Source: Labia minor
Lineage: Eukaryota > Arthropoda > Insecta > Dermaptera > Spongiphoridae
NCBI GenBank assembly: GCA_963082975.1
Contig: OY720350.1
Span: 7,273,488 to 7,337,487 of the forward strand
DNA length: 64,000 nt
Direction of reading: 5' to 3'
Part shown: positions 1 to 32,289 of the stretch, in pieces
How the letters are laid out: each line of letters begins with the position of its first letter
Numbering within the stretch: the stretch's first letter is position 1
Notes under the pieces: generated by a model
Database searches by the model: none
Told to the model about the DNA's origin: nothing
The model's input: only the letters and a program-made list of their open reading frames with translations
Program-made: the position numbers and the translations under genes

Positions 1-1426
1 CGTGATTCTCGATTGACCCGCGCTCCTAGACATCAACAGATGTTGATTTGTATATAGCTGACATCCCTCCGGAACGGTAACGATGCCTTGTTGATGTAGT
101 TGGATATCATCGAATCTAGGTTTGCTATTGGTACGGCAACTTTGCCGGGCCACTTGAGGTCGTGATATACTATAATACCAATGGGAACCAGAATATGATG
201 GTTCCCAAAAAATCAGTAATCGCCCCTAATAACACTTCCCATGAGCAGTAACTGTCTAGATGCTCCGCGTGTTTGAAGAAGAGGGCGCTGACACAACTGA
301 GTTGGGATCGGGCTACGAGTGGGATAGGCTGTTGACACACCATCGGCTCCCGTCCCCGGCAGCTGTCCACATATCTATGTTCTAGCGTGGTATATTTTTG
401 GTGGTCATGCGTTACGAGGATCCACGGGGAAATTTTCACTAGCTTGGTCCTCACTCCCCCCCGAGCTGTCGGCACAACATGAACGAAATATATTGTTCCT
501 GACTGGGATACTGTCTTCAACGGAAGTGAGATCACGAAACGGATAGCGTTCTTGACACTATACACTTTCACTAATGATGTATCATAGTACTTATAAACAA
601 ATCGTAATTCTAGCGGGGTCAGCCATTCCTGTCCTTCGGGGAGTTTCTTATTTATATCTATCATTAATTCTAATAACATTTTTGGGTTGATCAATCGCGC
701 ATCGAGGCGTCCCGCTGCCGCCGATTGAACAATCCCGAGGACATCCTCTAACCAGTTTCGAACTGACGTCACTGCTTGCCCCAGGCGTCGTGTCTTAGTC
801 ATTAATTCTAACGCTTCTTGAAAAAATTTTTCGGCTGCGTTTTGCCGTCCAAGTGTCCAATTAAAATTTCGGTCTATCAAAGTGGCTAATTCCAATAATG
901 TTCTAGCATGCTGTTTAATCAAGTCGAAATTTTGATTAGTTTTATGGTCGAGTTGGTCTAATGCTGTGATTTGATCATCGAAGTAATGACTCATTTGTTC
1001 ATTAACTTCATTTAAATTTTGTAATCTGGTATTCAATTCCACCAGATCTTCATTATCTAAAGTTCCGAAAATGAATTTTAAAACGTGCCCCCCCGCGTCC
1101 ACCAGACCACGTCGACTTCGCGCCGGGGGTAGCATTTCACTCAAATGTGAAATAATCCCCTCCGTCATCTCGAAACTGGTCTTAATATAGGACATATCCT
1201 CCTTAAAATCTATTGCCTTCAAAGGTTCTCCTTCTAAGAGAGCGTATCGGTCATCCTGTAATTTCTCCAGAGAATTCCTGATGACCGATACCTTCCCTTG
1301 AATCTCTTTCACGTCGACTTCCGTTACAATCCGCCACTCATCTCCCGTAATTACCACATCGTCGACTGGTTCAAAATAGACTCCCAGTGGCATTATCTCC
1401 TCCCTCTCCCCCGCCTGCTTCCCCAT
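1..1426 (-). pseudogene. env: env: baculovirus F-like envelope glycoprotein, frameshifted and cut by the window edge
   Basis: The open frame runs from the ATG at 1426 to a TAG at 170 (418 codons). A furin-type site RSRR at residues 103-106 is followed by a glycine-rich hydrophobic stretch and the FGTLD motif, the F-protein fusion-peptide region. Coiled-coil-like heptads follow (about 125-200), then a Cys-containing ectodomain. Near 205-230 the reading shifts by one base, probably at the six-T run around 213-220: the F-type motif ending in a PEGC core continues in another frame down to position 1. The family mediates membrane fusion of enveloped insect viruses and errantiviruses. The N-terminus has no obvious signal peptide, so one may be supplied by an upstream spliced leader. 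The C-terminal membrane anchor lies outside the window. A sequencing error in the homopolymer is an alternative to true decay. Confidence 0.85.
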
Positions 1427-1443
1427 CGCATCGTTAGTTTGGC

Positions 1444-1468
1444 CTGTGAGAGAAGAAACAAAGAAACA
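1444..1468 (-). promoter_or_regulatory. Candidate 3' splice acceptor for env mRNA
   Basis: Between the pol stop (1469-1471) and the env ATG (1424-1426) the minus strand reads a pyrimidine tract of about 20 bases ending in CACAG, with the AG at 1445-1444. This is a textbook acceptor placed exactly in the pol-env gap. Env of gypsy-type elements is known to be made from a spliced subgenomic RNA, and this site fits that role. The matching donor was not located. Confidence 0.7.
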
Positions 1469-4400
1469 TTACTCCTTTTTTTTATGGAAATTCCAAATGG
1501 TTCTCTTTTTAGGACGCCCTACCCCTCTCTTTTTTGGTGGGACTCCAACGGGTGGTTTACTCGTATTAGGGTTCTTTGTCGCCCCGGCTGTTGTGGGAGG
1601 TCTTGTCCCCGGGCTACTGGTACTGGGTTGGGCCTCCACGCTACCCCTAACCGGGACATCTCTATTGGGTGGTGTGTGAGGAGGGTGTGCATTCTGGTCC
1701 CGAGTGTTGGGTGATTTCTCCGGGCTAGCCGGGGAATCTATATCCTCCCACCCCTCCTCCCTTTGATTTTCTTCATCCTGCGAAGTTTGTCCTGTTTCCC
1801 CTTGAGTAACGTGCTCACCGGTCTCTGTCTCCTGTCGCCCAGACTCTGGATCTCTTCTGTCAATTCTGAGGGATTCCTCTTCCCTTAGTGCTTCTGCGAT
1901 GTCTATTTCATCTTGGCTTTCTAAATTAATTACAGGAGGTGTTTCCTTCTCCCCTTCGGGCTCGATCTCCTCTATCTCGCTGGGTCTTGCGGAATAATCT
2001 AGTTGTCCTACTCCATTCCAATTGGGCTGGGAGTCATTCTGTTCTCGCCACGGACTCAATGAAATGTCCTCTTCCCCTGACCACACATCGTCTTCCGAAT
2101 CGCTCTCCCAAATTCGGTTTTTCTCCTCTTCATCATCAGTTGGCGTTGGGGTTCCAATGGCCGCTGGTGTGTATATGTGTACTCTCACCGGGTAGTCGGG
2201 GGTTAGCTCTTTTAGCCACTTCTTGACTTGTACCCATTTGAGGCCGTCCATTCCGCATCCTAAGCGCGGAACCGCCAATGCTGGGATTCCTACCTCGGTC
2301 GCCTTCAGTAGAAGGTTCTTGATTGTCATTTTCACGTTTTCAGGGCGCGGCTTGTCACTCGCTTTTGTTTTCGTGACACAGTGAAGTATTACTCTATCTG
2401 GGTGGTATTGTACTAGGATCTCTCCGATGGTTGGTTCTGGGATCTTTTCGCAAGGGTGCCTCGGATAGGTGTCTCGTATAGTTTTTGCAACACCTTGGGA
2501 CATGCGTAAGTCGGCCGATACGCAATGAGCTAAGGCGTAATTTTTGGGTGCCATCAACATATCTCCCGTGTGTTCATATACACGGTTCACTCCGCGGCGT
2601 TCTATATTGGCTGGTTTCAAACGATTCACATGTATGTTGACAATCTTAGTGGGGCTCCACCACACTCCATATACCACTTCGGAATTTTTTGTCGCTATCG
2701 TGTAGGGGCCCTTCCAAGGCTTATAAAATTTCCGAGCTTCTGACTCTTTCAGAACGGGGTTGTATACATATACTTCATCCCCTACCTCTAACCTTCGGAA
2801 TTTTCGATGTTTATTAGCCTGTTTCCTGCTCGCCTGTAACCTGGCTTCCGACTGATTTATCGACCGTTGTTGTAGATGTTCTATCCGGTCGCACAAGTCG
2901 TTTAGATATGCCCATCTATCTGGCCCTTCTTGATGATGTTGATTTTTTACGGTGATATTAATGTCTGTTTCCCGGCCGAATGCTAACACATTCGGCGAAA
3001 ACCCAGTGCTGGAATGGGGTCCGCTCCGATAAGCCATTAACGCGTATGGCAACCAAACATCCCAGTCTTTACCGTCTGTTCTCACCCACGGTCGAAGCAT
3101 CTCATTTATTGTTTTGTGTACCCTTTCCACTCGTCCGTTCGATTCTGGATGATAGGCTGTTGTTTGTACCTTCTTTATTCCTAAACGTTGACATAGTCCC
3201 AGGAATAGTTTAGAGGTGAAATTTCTTCCTTGATCGGTTAAGATGATTTCTGGGATCCCATGCCGGCTTATTACTTCTTCCGTGAGCGCACGGATCACTC
3301 TGGCCGCTGTTTGGTTCGGCATGGGTATCGCTTCCAAGTACCGGGAGTAGTGATCTAGTACCGTCAAAAGGTATCTATTACCTCGGGTGGACTTCGGGAA
3401 TTCCACGACATCTAGTGCTATCATTTGGAAGGGCCTTCTGGGGATCTCATGTGGTTGAACGGGAGCTCGAAGTCCAGTTGGCGACTTCATCTGGGTACAT
3501 ATACTACACTGTTTCACCCAGGACTCTACGTCCCGTTCCATTCCCTCCCAAAAATATTGTCGCTGGATTCGTGATAAGGTTCCCTGTACCCCTCTATGCC
3601 CCGCCGTGGGTCTATCATGATTCTCTTCCAGTATCATGGGCACCTTTTCTCGGGGTACCATTAGACGGGTTTGGTGATCATCTACTACGTACAAACACCC
3701 ATCGGATCTTGCTTGGGCTTTGCCGCTCCGTGCCCACCGCTGACAGTCCTCATCTTGATCTTGTGATTCGCGCCATTCTTTTTCGGTCGCTGTGGTTCTC
3801 AATAAAGTTCGAATCGTATGCACCTTCGACTCAGGGCCTTCCTCACTAACTTTCACCCTGCTGAGAGCATCCGCATTCCGATGTAACTTCCCCGGTCGAT
3901 GTTCTACTGTATAGTCATATTCCGCCAGTCGTAGCGCCCATCGTGTCAACCGCTGTGACGGATCATGCAGACTTAACATCCATTTCAAGGCCGCGTGGTC
4001 AGTTATCAGTTGGAATTTCCTCCCATATAGGTAACACCGAAATTGTTGCGTCGCCCACACTACAGCAAGTAGTTCTTTCTCCGTTACTGTGTAGTTACTT
4101 TCGGCCTTGTTCAACGTTCGACTGGCGTACGCAATCGGCCTTTCATATCCGTCTCGACGCTGTGATAACACTGCGCCTAAAGCCTCGTTCGAGGCGTCTG
4201 TGGCCAAGATAAACGGCAGTGTGAAATCTGGATAAACGAGTACGGTGTCACTACACAGGAATTTTGTGAGAGAAAGAAACGCTTGTTCCTGGTCCTTCCC
4301 CCATTGGAACTTCTGGTCTTTCTTCGTGAGGACCGTCAATGGCTTCGCAATATTAGCATACTCAGGGATAAACCTCCTGTACCACCCTGAGAGTCCCAGA

Positions 4401-6436
4401 AACTGTTGTATCTCTTTTACGTTTTTCGGTTGTGGGTAGTTATTAATCGCTTCCACTGTTTTTGGATCGGGTCGAACTCCATCTTTCCCCACCCGATGCC
4501 CCAGGTACCCCACTTCTCCCACCGCGAAATGACATTTCTCTAGTTGTATTTGCAGTCTTGCCTGTCGGAGGCATTCGAATACGTTTCGCAACCTTCTTTG
4601 ATGTTCTGTAAATGTTGTACCAAATACTACCACATCATCTAGATATACGAAACATTCGCTTCCCTTAATTCCAGCCAACACCCGATCCATCAAGCGTTGG
4701 AAAGTAGCTGGAGCCCCGGCTAAACCGAACGGCATTCTTGCGTACTCAAAATGCCCCATAAAAGTAGTGAATGCGGTTTTCTCTCTATCTTCTGGAGCTA
4801 CCTGAATTTGGTGGTACCCACTTGCCAGGTCTAGGGTAGTGAAATATTGTGCATTTCCTAAGGATTCTAGCGTCTCCGTGATATTAGGTATCGGATACAC
4901 CGGAATCTTCGTTACACTGTTCAGAGCTCGGTAGTCAGTACAAAATCGATATTTAACCCTCCCGTCTGTACTCTTTTTGGGTACTAGTACTACGGGTGCT
5001 GACCATGGCGAATCTGATTCTACAATCACTCCTTCTTCTAGCATCTTCCCGATCTGTTTTTCTACTTCGGGTCTCATCGCATGCGGCACTCTATAGGGTC
5101 GTTTAAAGATGGGAGCCGATCCTTCAGTGACAATTTTATGCTTCACACCTAGTGCACAACCCAATCCCGTTGTTCCCTCTTCATACATCAATGAAGCATA
5201 TTCGTTCAATAGCTCGAACATCTGATGTTGGTGATTTTTAGGCAGGTGGGTCAACTTTTCCTTGAACTTAGATACCCATTGATGTTTGGTTTCTTGTTCA
5301 ACCACCTGCACTCGGCAAATACAACTTTGGTCTAATATTGGTATCGTGCTGGCTTTGGCAAGTTGTTGGCGACGATCTATCACTGCCTCCCTACTAGATA
5401 AGTTTATTACTCTGACCGGTACACTTCCTTTCTCGACTCTCACACAAGTCCGCCCTACTCGTAACACTGGTTGCGCCAATATAACCGGTTCCACTACCAT
5501 TTCTGAGCCATCTTGTGCATTATCTACCTCAGCCCAGACCACTACCTCGGACCACGCCGGAATTACTTTCCTCTGTTTTGCTCTCACGACCTCCTCTGGC
5601 AATCCTTCTACCCCTGTGACAGGCGGAATGCCACTAATGGCTTCAAATTCCGTGTCCTCTTTCCCAGTGCTAATTACCCTTGCCCTCACGTCCTCTTCTG
5701 GCCCTCCTTCTATCCCGGTGACAGGCGGAATGCCACTAATGGCTTCAAATTCCGTGTCATCCTTTCTAGTGCCAATTACTCGCGCTCTCACGACCTCCTC
5801 TTGCACTTCTATCCCGGTGACAGGCGGAATGCCACTAATGGCTCCAAATTCCGTGTCATCAGTTTCAGTGCTAACTACTCCTCTAGGTCGTTCCAGGGGA
5901 ATAATCTCCAAATTACTCCCATCCCCAACGCCCCTTTTCCCTTTCCCGTTACCTCGTGCTGTGCCGTTCCAACGGCACTCCCTTTTCTGCACATCAATCA
6001 CCGCTCCCAAAGCGGTCAACACATCCATTCCCAGGAGCCCATCTCCCGCTATTCGTACATCGCAAATAATGAATGGATGCATGATTCTTTTCTTCGTCAC
6101 CAGTATCGGAAGCATTTGTTGACCACTAATGGGCAACAGATCTCCCGTAACTCCACACGCATTTCGCGGATATCCCATTACAGGGATATCTGGAATAGGA
6201 GCTTTTAAGATCGACACTTCCGACCCCGTGTCCACTAGCATCTCCAATTCCCGTCCCCCTATACTCAGTCTCACTCTAGTAGCCTTATCCGCATTGGTGT
6301 TGATTGCGGTTACCAGGAGAGATCCGAATCTCTTCGGACTCACTCTTGGGGCGGAGGGAGTCCGAACTCTTTTGGGGCCACTTGCGTATGGATGTTTTCT
6401 TCGGCCACACACTTCACCTGGGGAGGTCGGGGACAC
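1469..6436 (-). CDS. pol: pol: protease-RT-RNase H-integrase polyprotein with a C-terminal macro domain
   Basis: A 1655-codon frame with no internal stop. Domains in order: aspartic protease DTG at 69-71; three 33-34-residue repeats starting with DTEF at 194, 227 and 261; reverse transcriptase with YLDD at 598-601; RNase H with acidic residues near D747, E788, D813 and D856; integrase zinc finger H940, H947, C977, C980; integrase core D1009, D1068, E1104 (exact D-35-E spacing); a GPY/F-like module near 1230-1260; macro domain about 1286-1426; acidic low-complexity tail ending in a GRPKKR AT-hook-like basic patch. It is read as Gag-Pol through the -1 shift at 6370-6376, so the ATG at 6436 is probably not used. 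All catalytic residues seen are intact, which suggests recent activity. It overlaps gag by about 97 bases and lies in the same frame as env. Confidence 0.96.
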   Translation of the reverse strand: MSPTSPGEVCGRRKHPYASGPKRVRTPSAPRVSPKRFGSLLVTAINTNADKATRVRLSIGGRELEMLVDTGSEVSILKAPIPDIPVMGYPRNACGVTGDLLPISGQQMLPILVTKKRIMHPFIICDVRIAGDGLLGMDVLTALGAVIDVQKRECRWNGTARGNGKGKRGVGDGSNLEIIPLERPRGVVSTETDDTEFGAISGIPPVTGIEVQEEVVRARVIGTRKDDTEFEAISGIPPVTGIEGGPEEDVRARVISTGKEDTEFEAISGIPPVTGVEGLPEEVVRAKQRKVIPAWSEVVVWAEVDNAQDGSEMVVEPVILAQPVLRVGRTCVRVEKGSVPVRVINLSSREAVIDRRQQLAKASTIPILDQSCICRVQVVEQETKHQWVSKFKEKLTHLPKNHQHQMFELLNEYASLMYEEGTTGLGCALGVKHKIVTEGSAPIFKRPYRVPHAMRPEVEKQIGKMLEEGVIVESDSPWSAPVVLVPKKSTDGRVKYRFCTDYRALNSVTKIPVYPIPNITETLESLGNAQYFTTLDLASGYHQIQVAPEDREKTAFTTFMGHFEYARMPFGLAGAPATFQRLMDRVLAGIKGSECFVYLDDVVVFGTTFTEHQRRLRNVFECLRQARLQIQLEKCHFAVGEVGYLGHRVGKDGVRPDPKTVEAINNYPQPKNVKEIQQFLGLSGWYRRFIPEYANIAKPLTVLTKKDQKFQWGKDQEQAFLSLTKFLCSDTVLVYPDFTLPFILATDASNEALGAVLSQRRDGYERPIAYASRTLNKAESNYTVTEKELLAVVWATQQFRCYLYGRKFQLITDHAALKWMLSLHDPSQRLTRWALRLAEYDYTVEHRPGKLHRNADALSRVKVSEEGPESKVHTIRTLLRTTATEKEWRESQDQDEDCQRWARSGKAQARSDGCLYVVDDHQTRLMVPREKVPMILEENHDRPTAGHRGVQGTLSRIQRQYFWEGMERDVESWVKQCSICTQMKSPTGLRAPVQPHEIPRRPFQMIALDVVEFPKSTRGNRYLLTVLDHYSRYLEAIPMPNQTAARVIRALTEEVISRHGIPEIILTDQGRNFTSKLFLGLCQRLGIKKVQTTAYHPESNGRVERVHKTINEMLRPWVRTDGKDWDVWLPYALMAYRSGPHSSTGFSPNVLAFGRETDINITVKNQHHQEGPDRWAYLNDLCDRIEHLQQRSINQSEARLQASRKQANKHRKFRRLEVGDEVYVYNPVLKESEARKFYKPWKGPYTIATKNSEVVYGVWWSPTKIVNIHVNRLKPANIERRGVNRVYEHTGDMLMAPKNYALAHCVSADLRMSQGVAKTIRDTYPRHPCEKIPEPTIGEILVQYHPDRVILHCVTKTKASDKPRPENVKMTIKNLLLKATEVGIPALAVPRLGCGMDGLKWVQVKKWLKELTPDYPVRVHIYTPAAIGTPTPTDDEEEKNRIWESDSEDDVWSGEEDISLSPWREQNDSQPNWNGVGQLDYSARPSEIEEIEPEGEKETPPVINLESQDEIDIAEALREEESLRIDRRDPESGRQETETGEHVTQGETGQTSQDEENQREEGWEDIDSPASPEKSPNTRDQNAHPPHTPPNRDVPVRGSVEAQPSTSSPGTRPPTTAGATKNPNTSKPPVGVPPKKRGVGRPKKRTIWNFHKKKE
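2158..2580 (-). other. TARG1/OARD1-like macro domain within pol (about residues 1286-1426)
   Basis: This segment lies between the integrase C-terminus and the acidic tail. It reads LAHCVSADLRMSQGVA, then VTKTKASDKP, then PRLGCGMDGLKW, ending VHIYTPAA. These match, in order, the signature blocks of the human ADP-ribosyl-acceptor hydrolase TARG1 (OARD1). The catalytic pair known in TARG1 (Lys84, Asp125) corresponds to K1356 and D1397 here, with the same 41-residue spacing. The family binds ADP-ribose and removes ADP-ribose from glutamate or aspartate, and also deacetylates O-acetyl-ADP-ribose. Activity here is inferred, not shown. The domain has no homologue in standard gypsy pol and was probably captured from a host or virus. 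Confidence 0.88.
5590..5860 (-). repeat. Three in-frame tandem repeats of about 100 bp in pol
   Basis: The block DTEFxAISGIPPVTG recurs three times between protease and reverse transcriptase, 33 and 34 residues apart, each followed by a glutamate-rich VRA segment. Near-identical DNA (for example ATGCCACTAATGGCT on the plus strand) shows the duplications are recent. The frame is preserved through every unit. Confidence 0.9.
6333..6376 (-). promoter_or_regulatory. -1 ribosomal frameshift signal: CCCAAAA heptamer plus hairpin
   Basis: On the minus strand, C CCA AAA in the gag frame (6376-6370) becomes CCC AAA in the pol frame, the canonical X XXY YYZ slip. Three bases downstream is a perfect 9-bp stem, TTCGGACTC (6366-6358) pairing with GAGTCCGAA (6341-6333), around a 16-base loop. 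The gag stop TGA (6342-6340) lies inside the 3' arm. The frame arithmetic of gag and pol fits exactly a -1 shift. Confidence 0.88.
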
Positions 6437-7341
6437 TGCCTTATAAAGTGCTCCCTACTCCCGCACCTATAGCATCCTTCACGAGGTTTGATGTTCCCTC
6501 TTTTCTCTGTACCCCCAATGGTACTATTCGGTTCCCTCTTTATGGGGCACATCCGAGCCATGTGTCCCTCCCGATTACAATTGTAACACCTGCCCCTAAT
6601 CGCAGGGTTACTCGTGAACCGTGTGTTGTCTCTACGTCTCCATGGGTAGGTAAAGCGGGTTTCCGGGACATTCCTTCCCTCTTTTTCCCACCGTTGCGCA
6701 ATCTGTAAGGCTCCTTCCTCGGTCGTGGGGGCTGCTACTCGGGCTTGTCTACCCGGTTCGCCTCTGAGCCCTTCTAGAAACCGAGCCAATAGGGTAATTC
6801 CTGTACCCGCCCAATCTATCCCGGCCATTGCATCTCGTAATCTATCTAGATAATCCGCTGCACTCTCTTGCGGAGTTTGACCCATAGTCAGGACCATTCT
6901 CATCCTTTGGGTGGCCGTGTCTTCCGGCTTGAACCTCGCTCTCAGTTGTTCCTTCACCCCTTCCCAAGTGATATCTCCTGGTAAATTTCTGACGACTCTC
7001 AACGCCGTTCCCTCCAGCTTCCATTCCAAGACCTCCCTCCTCTGGTCCTCGGGTATGTTACCCATTTTGGCCAATTGCTCAAATTTATTGAGGAATAGGT
7101 CAATCTGTCCTGTCCCCGTCCAGGGCGACATCCCCTCCACTATTCCCCAATTAGGGTCTCGATTGACGCGTACCTCCACGGGACCAGCCGCCCCAGTCAG
7201 ATTTGATAACTGGGCCTGCAATTGTCCTAATTGTTGTTCCAAATTATGGATCTGTTCCTCCATGTTTCGTGGGGGTGCTTTCAACTTCGATGTTGAGCAA
7301 ACACCAGGTCTAGGGTTTAATTTTATCGTACTCTCCCTCAC
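6340..7341 (-). CDS. gag: gag: capsid/nucleocapsid with two CCHC zinc knuckles
   Basis: 333 codons. An N-terminal coiled-coil-like segment (about 27-48) precedes a retrotransposon capsid region (about 70-215) with a YLDRLRD-type block. Two CX2CX4HX4C knuckles follow at C252-C265 and C290-C303; these bind RNA during packaging. The longest frame starts at 7341, but the ATG at residue 27 (7263) opens directly on the coiled coil and is an equally good start. The 3' end overlaps pol and carries the frameshift signal. No internal stops. Confidence 0.94.
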   Translation of the reverse strand: MRESTIKLNPRPGVCSTSKLKAPPRNMEEQIHNLEQQLGQLQAQLSNLTGAAGPVEVRVNRDPNWGIVEGMSPWTGTGQIDLFLNKFEQLAKMGNIPEDQRREVLEWKLEGTALRVVRNLPGDITWEGVKEQLRARFKPEDTATQRMRMVLTMGQTPQESAADYLDRLRDAMAGIDWAGTGITLLARFLEGLRGEPGRQARVAAPTTEEGALQIAQRWEKEGRNVPETRFTYPWRRRDNTRFTSNPAIRGRCYNCNREGHMARMCPIKREPNSTIGGTEKRGNIKPREGCYRCGSREHFIRQCPRPPQVKCVAEENIHTQVAPKEFGLPPPQE

Positions 7342-7524: not shown

Positions 7525-8391
7525 TGTAATGGGCCGCGTACTTACTTGCACCAATGCTAGAAAGAAGGTACGAGATCATGCCACCTATATGCGACGAATG
7601 TGTTAATTGTTTATTAAAAACATCATTTAATTTATTTCAAGTATAATTTATTTAATTTGTTCATTTAATTAGGATACAATTATAAATCAAATTTAAATCA
7701 TTAATATATTCACATACAATTTATTTAATTTAACTTGTTTATTTAATTAATTTTACATTAATTCCTTCAATCATAATTTATATTATTTAATTTATTTATT
7801 CAATCAATTTTACATTAATTCTTTCAATTATAACTTATTTAATTCAACTTGCTTATTTAATTAATTTTATATTAATTCAGTTAATCATAATTCATATTAT
7901 TTACTTTATTTATTCAATCAATTTTACATTAACTTATTTAATATATCTTATCCAAATTAATTCATTTATTTAATCAATTTCATACGAATTTATTCAAATG
8001 CATTTAATGTAATTAAATTTGCTTTACTCACACTCCCCTGGCCAGGAACACAGATTCACTAAACAGATCAAAATTAACACACACATCTTATAATTATCGA
8101 TAATTCAATCACTTATTCTCTCGTGTACATTCTCCACTGCCTGCCACACTCTCGCTCGCTTTAGGTTCATCTCACCTTGAGCCTCCCCTCCTTCCCCTTT
8201 CGCCATCTCCTTCTCTCATCCTCTGTCTCCGTTGCACCCATTAGTAATCTTTCTTTTCTTACATAACGATCACCCTTGATTATATTTTTCCCACGGCTTA
8301 AAGAATGCCAACTCAACTTCCTTCTTATTATTCTAACACATTCTCACTATATAATAATGTATATTATATAATATATTTCCAATACATTACA
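7525..8391 (-). repeat. 5' LTR of the env-bearing retroelement (867 bp)
   Basis: The plus-strand ends are TGTAATG (7525) and CATTACA (8385-8391), a perfect 7-bp inverted terminal pair with TG...CA. The PBS lies 2 bases inside the element. The LTR is very AT-rich with TTTAATT-type repeats at 7600-8000 and a more GC-containing part at 8030-8270. It should hold the element promoter and polyadenylation signal, but I could not fix a TATA box or cap site. The second LTR is outside the window, so its age cannot be estimated. Confidence 0.85.
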
Positions 8392-27365: not shown

Positions 27366-27675
27366 TGTGGCGATGATGACAACAATGAAAATAAACAAGA
27401 ATTTTTTCTAAAACATTCATGGCGCCTTGAGCTCACACTAACACACATATAAATTATAATTATTAATAATAAATATATAAATTTAACTATATTAATTTAA
27501 CCTGTGCACAGGAAATCATAACAACAAAAATAAGGTACATTAAATTAATTATATTTTATAAATATTGTAAAATTACACCACTTAATGATAAATATATTGT
27601 TTAATTATAGTTTCGTTTAATTTACTTTATTTATTATAAGACTCATAATTGGAGTTCCATAATTGGACTCCCATA
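27366..27675 (+). repeat. 5' LTR (310 bp)
   Basis: Begins TGTGGCGATGATGAC. By eye identical to the 3' LTR apart from one base near its last four bases (C at 27672 against T at 32286). The end contains repeated CATAATTGG units. AATAAA-like and TATAA-like strings are present but the promoter was not resolved. Confidence 0.92.
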
Positions 27676-27677
27676 AT

Positions 27678-27695
27678 TGGTGACCCCGTTTATGA
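27678..27695 (+). other. Primer-binding site
   Basis: TGGTGACCCCGTTTATGA begins 2 bases after the LTR. TGGTGACCCC is the usual PBS core of Mag-like gypsy elements; the tRNA is not assigned. Confidence 0.75.
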
Positions 27696-27971
27696 ACACA
27701 ATTATATTAAATTCAATAATTTAAAATCAGTATTATTATAATAAATTCACTAAGTTTAATTTAAATTTTTAATAACCTTATTTTTTTGTAAATTTTAATT
27801 TTTATTCATAATTCTTTATTAGTCATTTACCAATTGTTTCTTTTTATTTTATATTTATTGTTCTTATTGTGTATTATATTTAGTAGTATTTTCATTGTCT
27901 TTTTATTCATTTAGATAATTAAGTTTTTAATTTAAGATTAAGGGTAATTATCTTTAAATTGCAAATTCAAC

Positions 27972-28793
27972 ATGGACAATCAAATTGAAACAACTCCAAC
28001 TGCTACTACAATTCAGCGCGTCGCTATTAAAATTCCCCCACTTTGGCGCAAAAATATTAAAATATGGAGAATGCAGGTAGAAGCACAATTTTCTAATTAC
28101 TCCGTCACAACTGAGCTGACTAAATTTAATTATGTTTTGGCTTCGTTAGATTCAGATGTCGCCGAATTAGTTTCAGATTTTTTATCAAAAGAGCTCTCTA
28201 GTAAGCCATACACAGATCTAATGGACCGATTGCAAAGAGAATTTGAGGAATCCGAAGGTAGGAAAGTGACAAAATTATTAACAGAAATCGAGCTTGGCGA
28301 CAAGCGACCCAGCCAATTACTGCGCGAAATGCGTGCACTTGCTGGTACCCAGGTCAACGATGATTTTTTAAGAACTATATTTTTACAAAGATTACCTGTA
28401 AATTTACGTTCAATACTAGCCTCAAGCAGCGATTCTCTCGACAGTATGGCCGTTATGGCAGACAGAATCCTAGATTATTCTTACTCTTCTTACTCTTCAC
28501 CCCACATATCCTCTATTCCCAATAGTTCTGATATTAGCTCTACTACTCACCCAAGTCATCCAACAGACAGATTATCACGCCTAGAATCTCAGATAAACGA
28601 ACTATCTGCAGCTATTTCTCACTTAACAACCAGGCCTCGCTCAAAATCACGAACGCGTTCTTCTTCTAGAGGCAGGTACAATCCTAATGGTCCATTGTGC
28701 TGGTACCATCACACATTTCGAGAAAAGGCTAAGAAATGCAATAGTCCTTGCTCTTACGGTTCTAGATCGATACCGACGACGGAAAACTCATAG
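27972..28793 (+). CDS. gag: gag of the Mag-like element
   Basis: 273 codons from the ATG at 27972. The N-terminal block [20 protein letters not shown] and the following helical region are typical of Gag proteins of arthropod Ty3/gypsy elements with a DUF7041-type domain. Basic SR-rich sequence at about 220-236 precedes a variant knuckle C243-x2-H246-x9-C256-x3-C260, the usual end of Gag in this group. Stop at 28791. Pol lies one frame back (-1). Confidence 0.92.
28764..28793 (+). promoter_or_regulatory. Candidate gag-pol -1 frameshift window
   Basis: Only 28764-28793 is open in both frames. It contains G GAA AAC (28781-28787) two codons before the gag stop. This permits A-site re-pairing on AAA but is not a perfect X XXY YYZ heptamer. 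The window is certain, the slip site is inferred. Confidence 0.5.
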
Positions 28794-31700
28794 GCCACTC
28801 TCTTGAGGCGGCACAGGAAGTTGGCCATATTACCACTTGCCGCTTATACGTCAGAGATAACTCTACAAATGTTTCTTACCTAATAGATTCAGGCGCCGAT
28901 ATCTCCGTTATTCCACCCAACAATCAAGATAAAAAACATTTGGCAAAACGAACCTTATACGCAGCTAATGGCTCACCTATTCACACTTATGGCGAACGTC
29001 TTATTAATTTAGACATCGGTCTCAGGCGTTCTTTTTGTTGGCCATTTACAATTGCTGATGTCAAAGAACCAATTATTGGAGCCGATTTTCTGAATCGTTT
29101 TGGAATACTAGTTGACATTAAAAACAAATGTCTCATTGACAGAAATACTGCACTTTCAATTACAGCTATTGTAGCAAACGGTTCGTCTGAACCCAGTATT
29201 CTCTTATTAGACCCTTATGATAAATATTCTAAACTTCTTCAGCAATATCCCAACCTACTTCGCGATAACCCGGAGTTTTGTGCTACAGATATGGAATTCT
29301 TCCACACAATATCTACCACAGGACCTCCTGTAACTGCGAAGGCGAGACGACTTCCATCAAATAAATTAACTCAGGCTAAAACTGAATTCCAAAAGATGAT
29401 TGATTTAGGGATATGCCGGCCATCCAAAAGTCCTTGGTCAAGCCCACTCCACATGGTTTCCAAAAAAGATGGTTCCTGGCGACCGTGTGGCGATTATAGG
29501 GCACTTAATGCTATCACAACACCCGACCGCTATCCCATTCCTCACTTACACGACTTCAATAGTCGCCTTGCTGGCACTACTATTTTCTCTAAGGTGGACT
29601 TGGTCCGAGCCTTTCACCACATTCCAATCTTACCCGAACATATTCCCAAGACCGCAGTCATTACACCATTCGGTTTATATGAATTCATTAAGTTACCCTT
29701 TGGTCTGAGAAATGCCGCTCAGTCCTTTCAACGTTACATTGACTCTATATTAAGAGACTTAGATTTCGTCTTTTGTTACTTAGACGATATTCTTATAGCT
29801 TCGCAGAGTGAAGAACAACATATTCTTCATCTACATTCACTTTTTAATCGTCTTAATCAATGTAATATTAACATCAATTTATCAAAATGTCTCTTTGGTA
29901 TTAATCAGATTAATTTTCTAGGGTACTCTATTACCGCTGATGGCATTAAACCCTTACCAGACCGTGTCAACTCAATTGTATCCTTTAAACAACCTCAAAC
30001 TATAGCTGAACTGCGTCGTTTTCTTGGATTAATCAATTTCTATAGACGCTCACTCCCTTCTACCGCTAGCACCCAGCAGTTATTATTTAATCTATGCAAA
30101 GAAGTGCGTAAGAACGACAAACGTCATGTTGAATGGAATACTGAAGCATTGCGTGCCTTTGATTTACTCAAAAATCAAATCGCGAATGCTACTCTTTTAG
30201 CGCACCCTTCCAACGACTTACCTCTAGCACTCCTCGTTGATGCTTCCGATTTTGCTGTGGGATCTTCACTTAATCAAGTTCGTAATGGAAACTTTGAACC
30301 ACTTGGTTTCTTTTCTAAAACCTTGAACACCACACAAAAAAGATATAGTACTTACGACCGGGAACTATTAGCTGCATATTTGTCTATAAAACATTTCCGA
30401 TATCTTTTAGAAGGTCGTGAATTTACTCTATATACAGACCATAAGCCATTGACTTTTGCCTTTAAACAACGATTAGATAAAGCGTCGCCCAGGCAACTAC
30501 GTCAATTAGATTTTATCGGACAATTCACAACCAACCTCCAGTATATACCAGGTAAACATAACATCCCAGCTGATTTTTGCTCCCGTCTTTCCTCAATCTC
30601 CATGCCGTCTGTTATATCGTTCGATGCCGTAGCTAAATTACAACTCAAAGATGATGAACTTATGAGGCTCAAGGGAAACGATAAGACATCGCTTCAATTT
30701 CAAACTATCGTTTTACCTTCACAAGCAGAGCTGATCGTAGACACCTCAACAGGCCGATTAAGACCCTATCTACCTCAAGAGTTTAGTAAACCAGCTTTTG
30801 TATCTCTTCATGACATGGCTCATCCCGGCATCAAAGCATCAATCAAACTTGTGCAAGAAAGATACGTGTGGCCTTCTCTTAAAAGAGATGTAGAACTTTG
30901 GGCTAAGACCTGTATACCGTGTCAAAAGTCGAAAGTTACGAGACATATCTCTAGTGAAATAGGCTCTTATGAACAAGTGCAGAACAGATTTTCACACCTT
31001 AATATTGACATCGTTGGACCGCTGCCACCTTCTGAAGGATTCTCTTATTTATTGACCATCATTGATCGGTTTACTAGCTGGACTGAAGCCATACCAATTA
31101 AAGATATCTCAGCAGACACCGTTGCCCGATCCCTTTTGTTCTCATGGATTGCCAGATTTGGTGTGCCTTTGAAGATAACAACTGATCGGGGCAAACAATT
31201 CGACTGCGCACTATTCAACCATCTCACCGCCTTTCTCGGAATACGACATATTAAAACCACGGCATATCACCCATCTGCCAATGGAAAAATCGAAAGGTGG
31301 CACCGTCAACTAAAGTCTTCGCTACGGGCTCAATTGTCAAATGATTGGGTCAACAAATTGCCTACAATCCTTTTAGGCTTGCGTTCACTATTCGCACCTC
31401 ATCTCAACTCAACACCTGCAACCTTGGTCTATGGAGAACCATTACGATTACCTGCCGATTTCTTTGAGGACAGCACTCGATTGGTCGATTTACCTACATT
31501 AATCATTAAATTACAAGAACATGTTCGATCATTGAGACCAGTGACATCAGCTCATCACTCAGCCAAACAACCATTCGTTCACTCTGACATTCATCATACA
31601 TCTCATGTTTTTGTGAGACAAGATGCTATAAGAAAACCGTTGCAAGCCATCTACGAAGGTCCATACAAGGTAGTTTCAAGATCTCCTAAATTTTTTGAGA

Positions 31701-31990
31701 TTGATATGCCTAAGGGTAAACAAACCATATCAATTGACAGGCTTAAGCCAGCTTATCTCTTGTCCAGTGATTCAGAGAACTCGTTACCAACCACTGTACA
31801 ACCACATCAACAGCTTCCGGCCTCTCCAGAGTCAACCATCACACCTTCGACGCACAACCAACAGCAGCAGCAGCATCCAACAGCTTTACCAGCTCCTCCG
31901 CAACCTAAAGCGACTCGCTCAGGACGAACAGTTCATTTTCCATCTAAGTACCTTAGCGTTGTCACTGGGGAGGGAGTACTGTGGCGATGA
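28766..31990 (+). CDS. pol: pol of the Mag-like element: protease, RT, RNase H, integrase
   Basis: The frame is open from 28766 after a TAG at 28763, and no ATG precedes the protease, so it is expressed by a -1 shift from gag. Landmarks: protease DSG at 28886; RT YLDD at 29777-29788; RNase H with a VDASD block and TDHKPLTF; integrase zinc finger with HDMAHPG and CIPC; catalytic D at 31007, D at 31184, E at 31292 (35 residues between the last two). The tail has a Gln-rich run and ends [13 protein letters not shown], a conserved C-terminal motif of this group. The stop at 31988-31990 lies inside the 3' LTR. No disabling mutations seen. The first TTG at 28940 is not a true start. Confidence 0.95.
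31967..31976 (+). other. Polypurine tract
   Basis: GGGGAGGGAG lies three bases before the 3' LTR, the position required for plus-strand DNA priming. Confidence 0.85.
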
Positions 31991-32289
31991 TGACAACAAT
32001 GAAAATAAACAAGAATTTTTTCTAAAACATTCATGGCGCCTTGAGCTCACACTAACACACATATAAATTATAATTATTAATAATAAATATATAAATTTAA
32101 CTATATTAATTTAACCTGTGCACAGGAAATCATAACAACAAAAATAAGGTACATTAAATTAATTATATTTTATAAATATTGTAAAATTACACCACTTAAT
32201 GATAAATATATTGTTTAATTATAGTTTCGTTTAATTTACTTTATTTATTATAAGACTCATAATTGGAGTTCCATAATTGGACTCCTATA
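31980..32289 (+). repeat. 3' LTR (310 bp)
   Basis: Same length and start as the 5' LTR and no internal difference noticed on reading. Followed by TACA. Confidence 0.92.

Follow-up and report, generated by a model that had tools for sequence, protein, structure and literature searches.

Why would a Ty3/gypsy retroelement encode, behind its integrase, a domain of the kind that removes ADP-ribose? The question is raised by a 64,000-nucleotide stretch of the dermapteran Labia minor (C9:7273488-7337487, in a genome of 604 Mb in 71 contigs; hereafter the window), the left end of which holds a long terminal repeat (LTR) retroelement of 9690 bp of Ty3/gypsy type on the minus strand, as are all its features given below. 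Its pol frame (1469..6454, 1661 codons in the list of open reading frames) encodes protease, reverse transcriptase, RNase H and integrase in this order without a stop, and continues, still uninterrupted, into a macro domain at 2165..2587, a fusion that an earlier note on this DNA had described and that the Pfam domains along the frame bear out. We consider it most likely that an ancestor of this lineage captured a hydrolase of the TARG1 type, which was kept in Pol behind the integrase and would act in cis as an eraser of ADP-ribose marks; for this statement as a whole we estimate a probability of roughly 0.55.

The identity of the domain is based on Pfam, alignment, a search of the PDB and a predicted structure. 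It is 30% identical to human TARG1 (OARD1, C6orf130), and the structure prediction, which the earlier note had called for, returns a macro fold with confidence. Fold comparison places TARG1 nearest (Z 22.4), and the MacroD-type viral macrodomains of rubella (16.3) and the alphaviruses (15.0-15.9) are not the closest class. Both catalytic residues are kept, with the equivalents of TARG1 Lys84 and Asp125 encoded at 2369..2371 and 2246..2248 and aligned in the invariant columns K78 and D119. The domain is thus of TARG1 type by fold as well as by dyad, and, judging from sequence and model, it is probably a functional hydrolase of this type (the ALC1-like class) that looks able to strip ADP-ribose from DNA or proteins. 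The Lys/Asp dyad separates TARG1 from DarG and SCO6735 (excerpt of PMC9411070), the macrodomain of the DarG antitoxin having only the Lys, whereas the element keeps both residues.

The fusion is not confined to the window. Querying the host genome with the domain returned 125 matches: 63 rows at 60 places form family A, the window's own (88-100% identical, some partial), 32 rows form family B (39-41% identical to the window domain) and 23 rows family C (25-26%), the other seven being single relics D and E, the host's own TARG1 gene and one partial domain. With integrase alone as query, the best 125 of 1634 candidates were scored, leaving more distant elements outside this view. For every one of the best 113 (at least 43% identity), a macro match lies within 1.5 kb downstream; in a few broken copies this match is a short piece. 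The remaining 12 (at most 34% identity) have no macro match at E 0.01 within 1.5 kb downstream, and in three loci of the macro-less group (L070-L072) the frames end shortly past the integrase. An integrase tree, with three elements from the same genome as outgroups, splits A, B, C and relic D (L055) from these with support of 100/100.

General loss of the domain or of its catalytic residues from other copies, which the earlier note had named as fatal to its proposal, was not seen: the domain is kept, and nearly all fetched copies have both residues. Both residues are present in 40 of 42 fetched family A loci, the window copy included (L049 has lost the Asp by deletion, and L050 is frameshifted between Lys and Asp), at eight of nine places in B and in seven of eight loci in C; the matches at L056 and L066 stop before the Asp. 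Ten domains (four A, two B, one each of C, D and E, and the free-standing P0002) align with seven invariant columns, two of which are the dyad, and with hardly any internal gaps between families. The C domain, 24% identical to the window's in this alignment, matches TARG1 in the PDB with E 3.8e-18. A chance resemblance to TARG1 was excluded by the alignment, the 113 of 113 close integrase matches and the fold comparison, and a single-copy capture or artefact by the same 113 matches. Separately, a partial TARG1-like domain, in which the Lys stands in a different context, was found behind an unnamed frame (L058:2504-2713, C2:71977424-71977618).

Selection was assessed within family A as Nei-Gojobori proportions of replacing and silent changes (pN/pS) relative to the window copy. 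Among copies with an uninterrupted macro domain, the four that have diverged most (L040, L045, L046 and L047) show a pN/pS of 0.14-0.23 for the macro domain, 0.17-0.21 for the integrase and 0.54-0.81 for the Pol tail that follows. Replacing changes in the macro domain are fewer than silent ones in these copies by Fisher tests (p 4.6e-5 to 1.0e-3), which are not independent, as the A copies share descent. Across 15 distinct macro, 17 integrase and 17 tail sequences, with L048-L050 left out, variable codons with silent changes only and those with replacing changes number 20:18, 50:31 and 29:74, respectively, a split that separates macro from tail (p 0.009) and not macro from integrase (p 0.43). 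With a low pN/pS in the macro domain and a much less constrained tail in the same frame, the pattern of constraint is the one expected of an enzyme domain. Thus, purifying selection on the macro domain in family A is about as strong as on the integrase, congruent with the earlier note's claim of shared constraint. A bystander domain under no constraint was excluded by these proportions and tests.

Where in the life cycle the domain may serve is indicated by the distribution of env. All 60 A places have an F-type env (PF12259) no more than 5 kb from the macro domain, while none was found within this distance at 32 B and 23 C places (0/55); another env type in C is possible. In the B copy L051, sequence that is also present at the start of the locus sets in about 175 bp past pol, as expected if the LTR directly follows. 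The env frame of A has 612 codons at 42 of 60 places and 432 codons at nine, including the window copy. The copies with a 100% identical macro domain, eight in number with the window's, all belong to these nine, which suggests a recent expansion of a subfamily whose env frame is shorter and whose macro domain is intact. That the domain is kept in B and C, where no F-type env was found, and that the env frame is shorter in the window's subfamily, points to an intracellular role, around reverse transcription and integration rather than in entry. In the window, env-like coding goes on in another frame where the 432-codon frame ends (window 170, L069:1720-2301). Three of 63 Baculo_F places have no A, B or C macro domain within 5 kb (C60:75576, C4:73309129 and C4:49206653, with frames of 550, 534 and 239 codons, respectively) and are lone env genes or shortened copies.

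As for the origin, a macro tree calculated without P0001 unites A, B, D and E with support of 99/99, apart from host and human TARG1; with P0001 included, the support for the A/B/D/E side is 93/89 and P0001 falls inside it. A single clade of all element domains is not rejected by the approximately unbiased (AU) test (p 0.077 with P0001, 0.41 without). One ancient capture is the simplest reading, and two are possible, the placement of C being unsure. The host TARG1 gene on C2 (L057) contains introns; the two exons matched share 49% and 58% identity with human TARG1, as compared to 25% and 54% with the element domain. A recent capture from this host was excluded by the exon identities and the separate 99/99 clade obtained with P0001 left out.

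P0001 itself (868 amino acids, from an ENA contig of 7313 bases) combines a reverse transcriptase with an N-terminal TARG1-like stretch (E 8e-12 against TARG1) that holds Lys and Asp. At E 1, Pfam detects the reverse transcriptase only, with no match for integrase or Macro. By its sequence, it is possibly another type of retroelement with a TARG1-like domain, perhaps a DIRS-like one. In P0001 the macro stretch precedes the reverse transcriptase, whereas in our element it follows the integrase, both joining such a stretch to a reverse transcriptase protein. Together with the macro domains of fish endogenous retroviruses (excerpt of PMC4977317), P0001 suggests more than one acquisition by retroelements. 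Protein-database searches gave few relatives, from which the spread of the fusion among animals cannot be read. In IMG/VR, 77 viral contig loci (L073-L149) encode TARG1-like macro relatives, and the phage family PHROG 335 matches the element domain (E 1.3e-16), but none of the 77 loci matched reverse transcriptase or integrase queries; a scan of viral contigs with the single domain as query gave no match.

The remaining parts of the element are as follows. The 5' LTR (7525..8391, 867 bp, starting with TG and ending with CA) is identical at 867 of 867 bases to the 3' LTR, which lies outside the window (C9:7272189-7273055, equal to L069:790-1656) and was placed by pairwise comparison. Since the LTRs are identical and ACAA flanks the element on both sides as a 4-bp target duplication, the element must have inserted very recently. 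Inside the LTR lie AT-rich repeats in tandem, each about 57 bp long (window 7699-8024). The gag frame, with two CCHC zinc knuckles detected by domain search (6340..7341), overlaps pol by 115 bp in a -1 relation according to frame arithmetic. Within pol, Pfam searches locate the aspartic protease PF00077 (5996..6280, E 1.9e-5), the reverse transcriptase PF00078 (4490..4984, E 2.2e-33), RNase H PF17917/PF17919 (3917..4303), the integrase zinc-binding domain and catalytic core PF17921 and PF00665 (3146..3658), and the end of the integrase C-terminal domain PF22938 (2612..2710), the last with E 0.00026 and 21.5 bits, under the cut-off of 27. Between protease and reverse transcriptase, three units of roughly 102 bp are arrayed in tandem (window 5578-5880); pol frames elsewhere of 1628 and 1594 codons fall 34 and 68 codons short of 1662, which would match one or two units fewer. 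Downstream of pol lies the F-type env frame (170..1468, 432 codons, E 6.8e-25), with an AG at 1444..1445, behind a pyrimidine run and ahead of the first ATG of the frame, as a possible splice acceptor. A second gypsy-type element occupies window 27366-32289, with LTRs at 27366-27675 and 31980-32289 (99.7% identical) and a long pol frame (28766-31990), the integrase of which groups with the macro-less outgroup elements.

Behind the macro domain, the window Pol ends in a fast-evolving acidic tail of 224 residues and net charge -23 (1472..2143), for which no Pfam match was obtained at E 0.01 (window:1472-2101). The arrangement is shared by A, B, C and D, in which the macro domain is basic (net charge +6 to +11) and the 200-256 residues of the tail behind it are acidic (net charge -11 to -31). 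The very end of the window Pol is the basic KKRGVGRPKKRTIWNFHKKKE (1472..1534). This peptide, which we take to be AT-hook-like, ends Pol in A (GRPKKRTIWNFHKKK) and D (RGRSRKRTYWNFMSRR), and a relative is found inside the tail of C (RGRPPKRKIFNFHKRK); none was seen in B. Chromoviruses carry a chromodomain at the integrase end; behind the integrase of the window element no chromodomain match was detected at E 0.01 (window:2102-4102 and window:1472-2101).

Among known systems, the element resembles the errantiviruses and insect endogenous retroviruses, with which it shares the gag-pol-env order, an F-type env downstream of pol, LTRs and an insect host (excerpt of PMC12992720). The insect origin of the genome is borne out by 83 matches to the insect-specific odorant-receptor family PF02949, which has no match in 14 control genomes. 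The element differs from the errantiviruses in the macro domain between integrase and env, and in B and C, of the same integrase clade, no F-type env was found. Epsilon-like endogenous retroviruses of ray-finned fish are likewise LTR retroelements with a macro domain, but macro-domain or CNPase sequences are described there as additional open reading frames; here the domain is within Pol. ALC1-like macrodomains, the class of human TARG1, are described as minimal, without N- or C-terminal extensions (excerpt of PMC7050489), unlike the element domain, fused in Pol with its acidic tail. In the open-licence literature, as far as our searches reach, no macro domain is described in Ty3/gypsy elements. 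The earlier note's statement that no standard gypsy element has this module therefore agrees with these searches, although, given the fish viruses, retroviral macro domains as such are not new. The element is thus of a known kind, and the TARG1 module behind its integrase is, within the reach of the same searches, novel for Ty3/gypsy.

How might such a domain act? The linear complementary DNA (cDNA) of a retroelement carries 5'-phosphates at termini that are blunt or almost blunt, and gaps of single-stranded DNA are left when it integrates. Going beyond the observations above, the hydrolase, made beside the integrase, would enter the particle and the pre-integration complex, and, because it forms one chain with the integrase, would sit at the cDNA ends and gaps. 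There it could remove ADP-ribose set by host PARP-type enzymes on the blunt 5'-phosphate ends, on the single-stranded DNA that arises in reverse transcription or at integration gaps, or on acidic residues in the integrase and in chromatin proteins nearby, and such erasure would let integration and gap repair finish. The chemistry is known from TARG1, which frees ADP-ribose from Glu/Asp esters and nucleic-acid-end phosphate (excerpt of PMC7050489) and from thymidine in single-stranded DNA (excerpt of PMC8501950). PARP3 favours the 5'-phosphate at blunt DNA ends, a mark that TARG1 removes weakly and D125A does not (excerpt of PMC5725667), and PARP1 marks single-stranded DNA at unligated telomere fragments, where TARG1 clears the mark (excerpt of PMC11102865).

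The same activity might instead be directed in trans, stripping ADP-ribose set by antiviral PARPs from host proteins or element RNA. This is the chemistry of viral MacroD-type domains, which have been linked to the countering of PARPs (excerpt of PMC7050489), and selection in family A and the PARP-like matches in the host are congruent with it. The fixed place behind the integrase, however, points to a role in cis, the host shows only seven PARP catalytic matches (genes split by introns may have escaped the search), a number that gives little hint of an extensive antiviral set, and the domain persists in families for which no F-type env was detected; we regard this explanation, ranked next after the cis-eraser, as unlikely. 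Ranked third, and unlikely as well, is a reader or tether that binds ADP-ribose on chromatin or breaks and steers integration, in the way of the chromodomains of chromoviruses, hydrolysis being secondary. The position at the integrase end, the basic peptide of A, C and D and the changed loops in C speak for it, yet a pure reader needs no dyad, Lys and Asp are invariant across families, and the peptide was not seen in B. That the domain is a chance acquisition, not yet lost and serving as no more than a passive passenger or a spacer in the structure, could be argued from its faster divergence between families as compared to the integrase (A-B 36-41% vs about 50%, A-C 24-26% vs about 44% identity), but we hold it to be very improbable in light of pN/pS well below 1 and near that of the integrase, the invariant dyad, the few internal gaps and the macro match downstream of every close integrase match scored.

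Several observations nevertheless weigh against the cis-eraser reading. In the less diverged copies L041-L044, pN/pS is 0.12-0.19 for macro, 0.07-0.14 for integrase and 0.38-0.60 for the tail, and the macro domain may be less constrained than the integrase; L039 has one silent and two replacing macro changes (pN/pS 0.62), and near-identical copies have too few changes. The tail is not free of constraint (Fisher p 0.049 in L047, 0.013 in L045, 0.49 in L040), and the constraint figures cover family A only. Family C has DLVTD in place of the GCGLD of TARG1, so that the Gly-Cys-Gly loop before the Asp is gone, and a Pfam search with its domain yields nothing even at E 1; the E relic (L053) scores under the Pfam Macro cut-off. 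B and C have also lost the Asp in the GDLF motif, early in the domain, and with such losses some of the families may be less than full TARG1-like enzymes. Moreover, C groups with TARG1 genes, apart from A, B, D and E, in both macro trees, so that, with the AU result, a second capture by the C lineage is possible. Finally, TARG1 is among the weaker DNA-end hydrolases (excerpt of PMC5725667).

Taken together, the macro domain of this lineage suggests that ADP-ribose tagging hinders these elements. A broader proposal, which we make tentatively and hold as somewhat doubtful, is that host ADP-ribosylation of cDNA or the integration site is a real barrier to retroelements in animals, that the TARG1-type eraser in Pol is a standing part of this lineage's integration machinery, and that such erasers have been taken up repeatedly. 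If the domain is active, it would offer a handle in the form of a small expressible domain with a two-residue dyad and natural loop variants, in a host with its own TARG1 and few PARP-like genes. ADP-ribosylation would then be a step that retroelements must overcome, and DNA ADP-ribosylation, known at telomeres, breaks and in bacterial toxin systems, would be tied to reverse transcription and integration.
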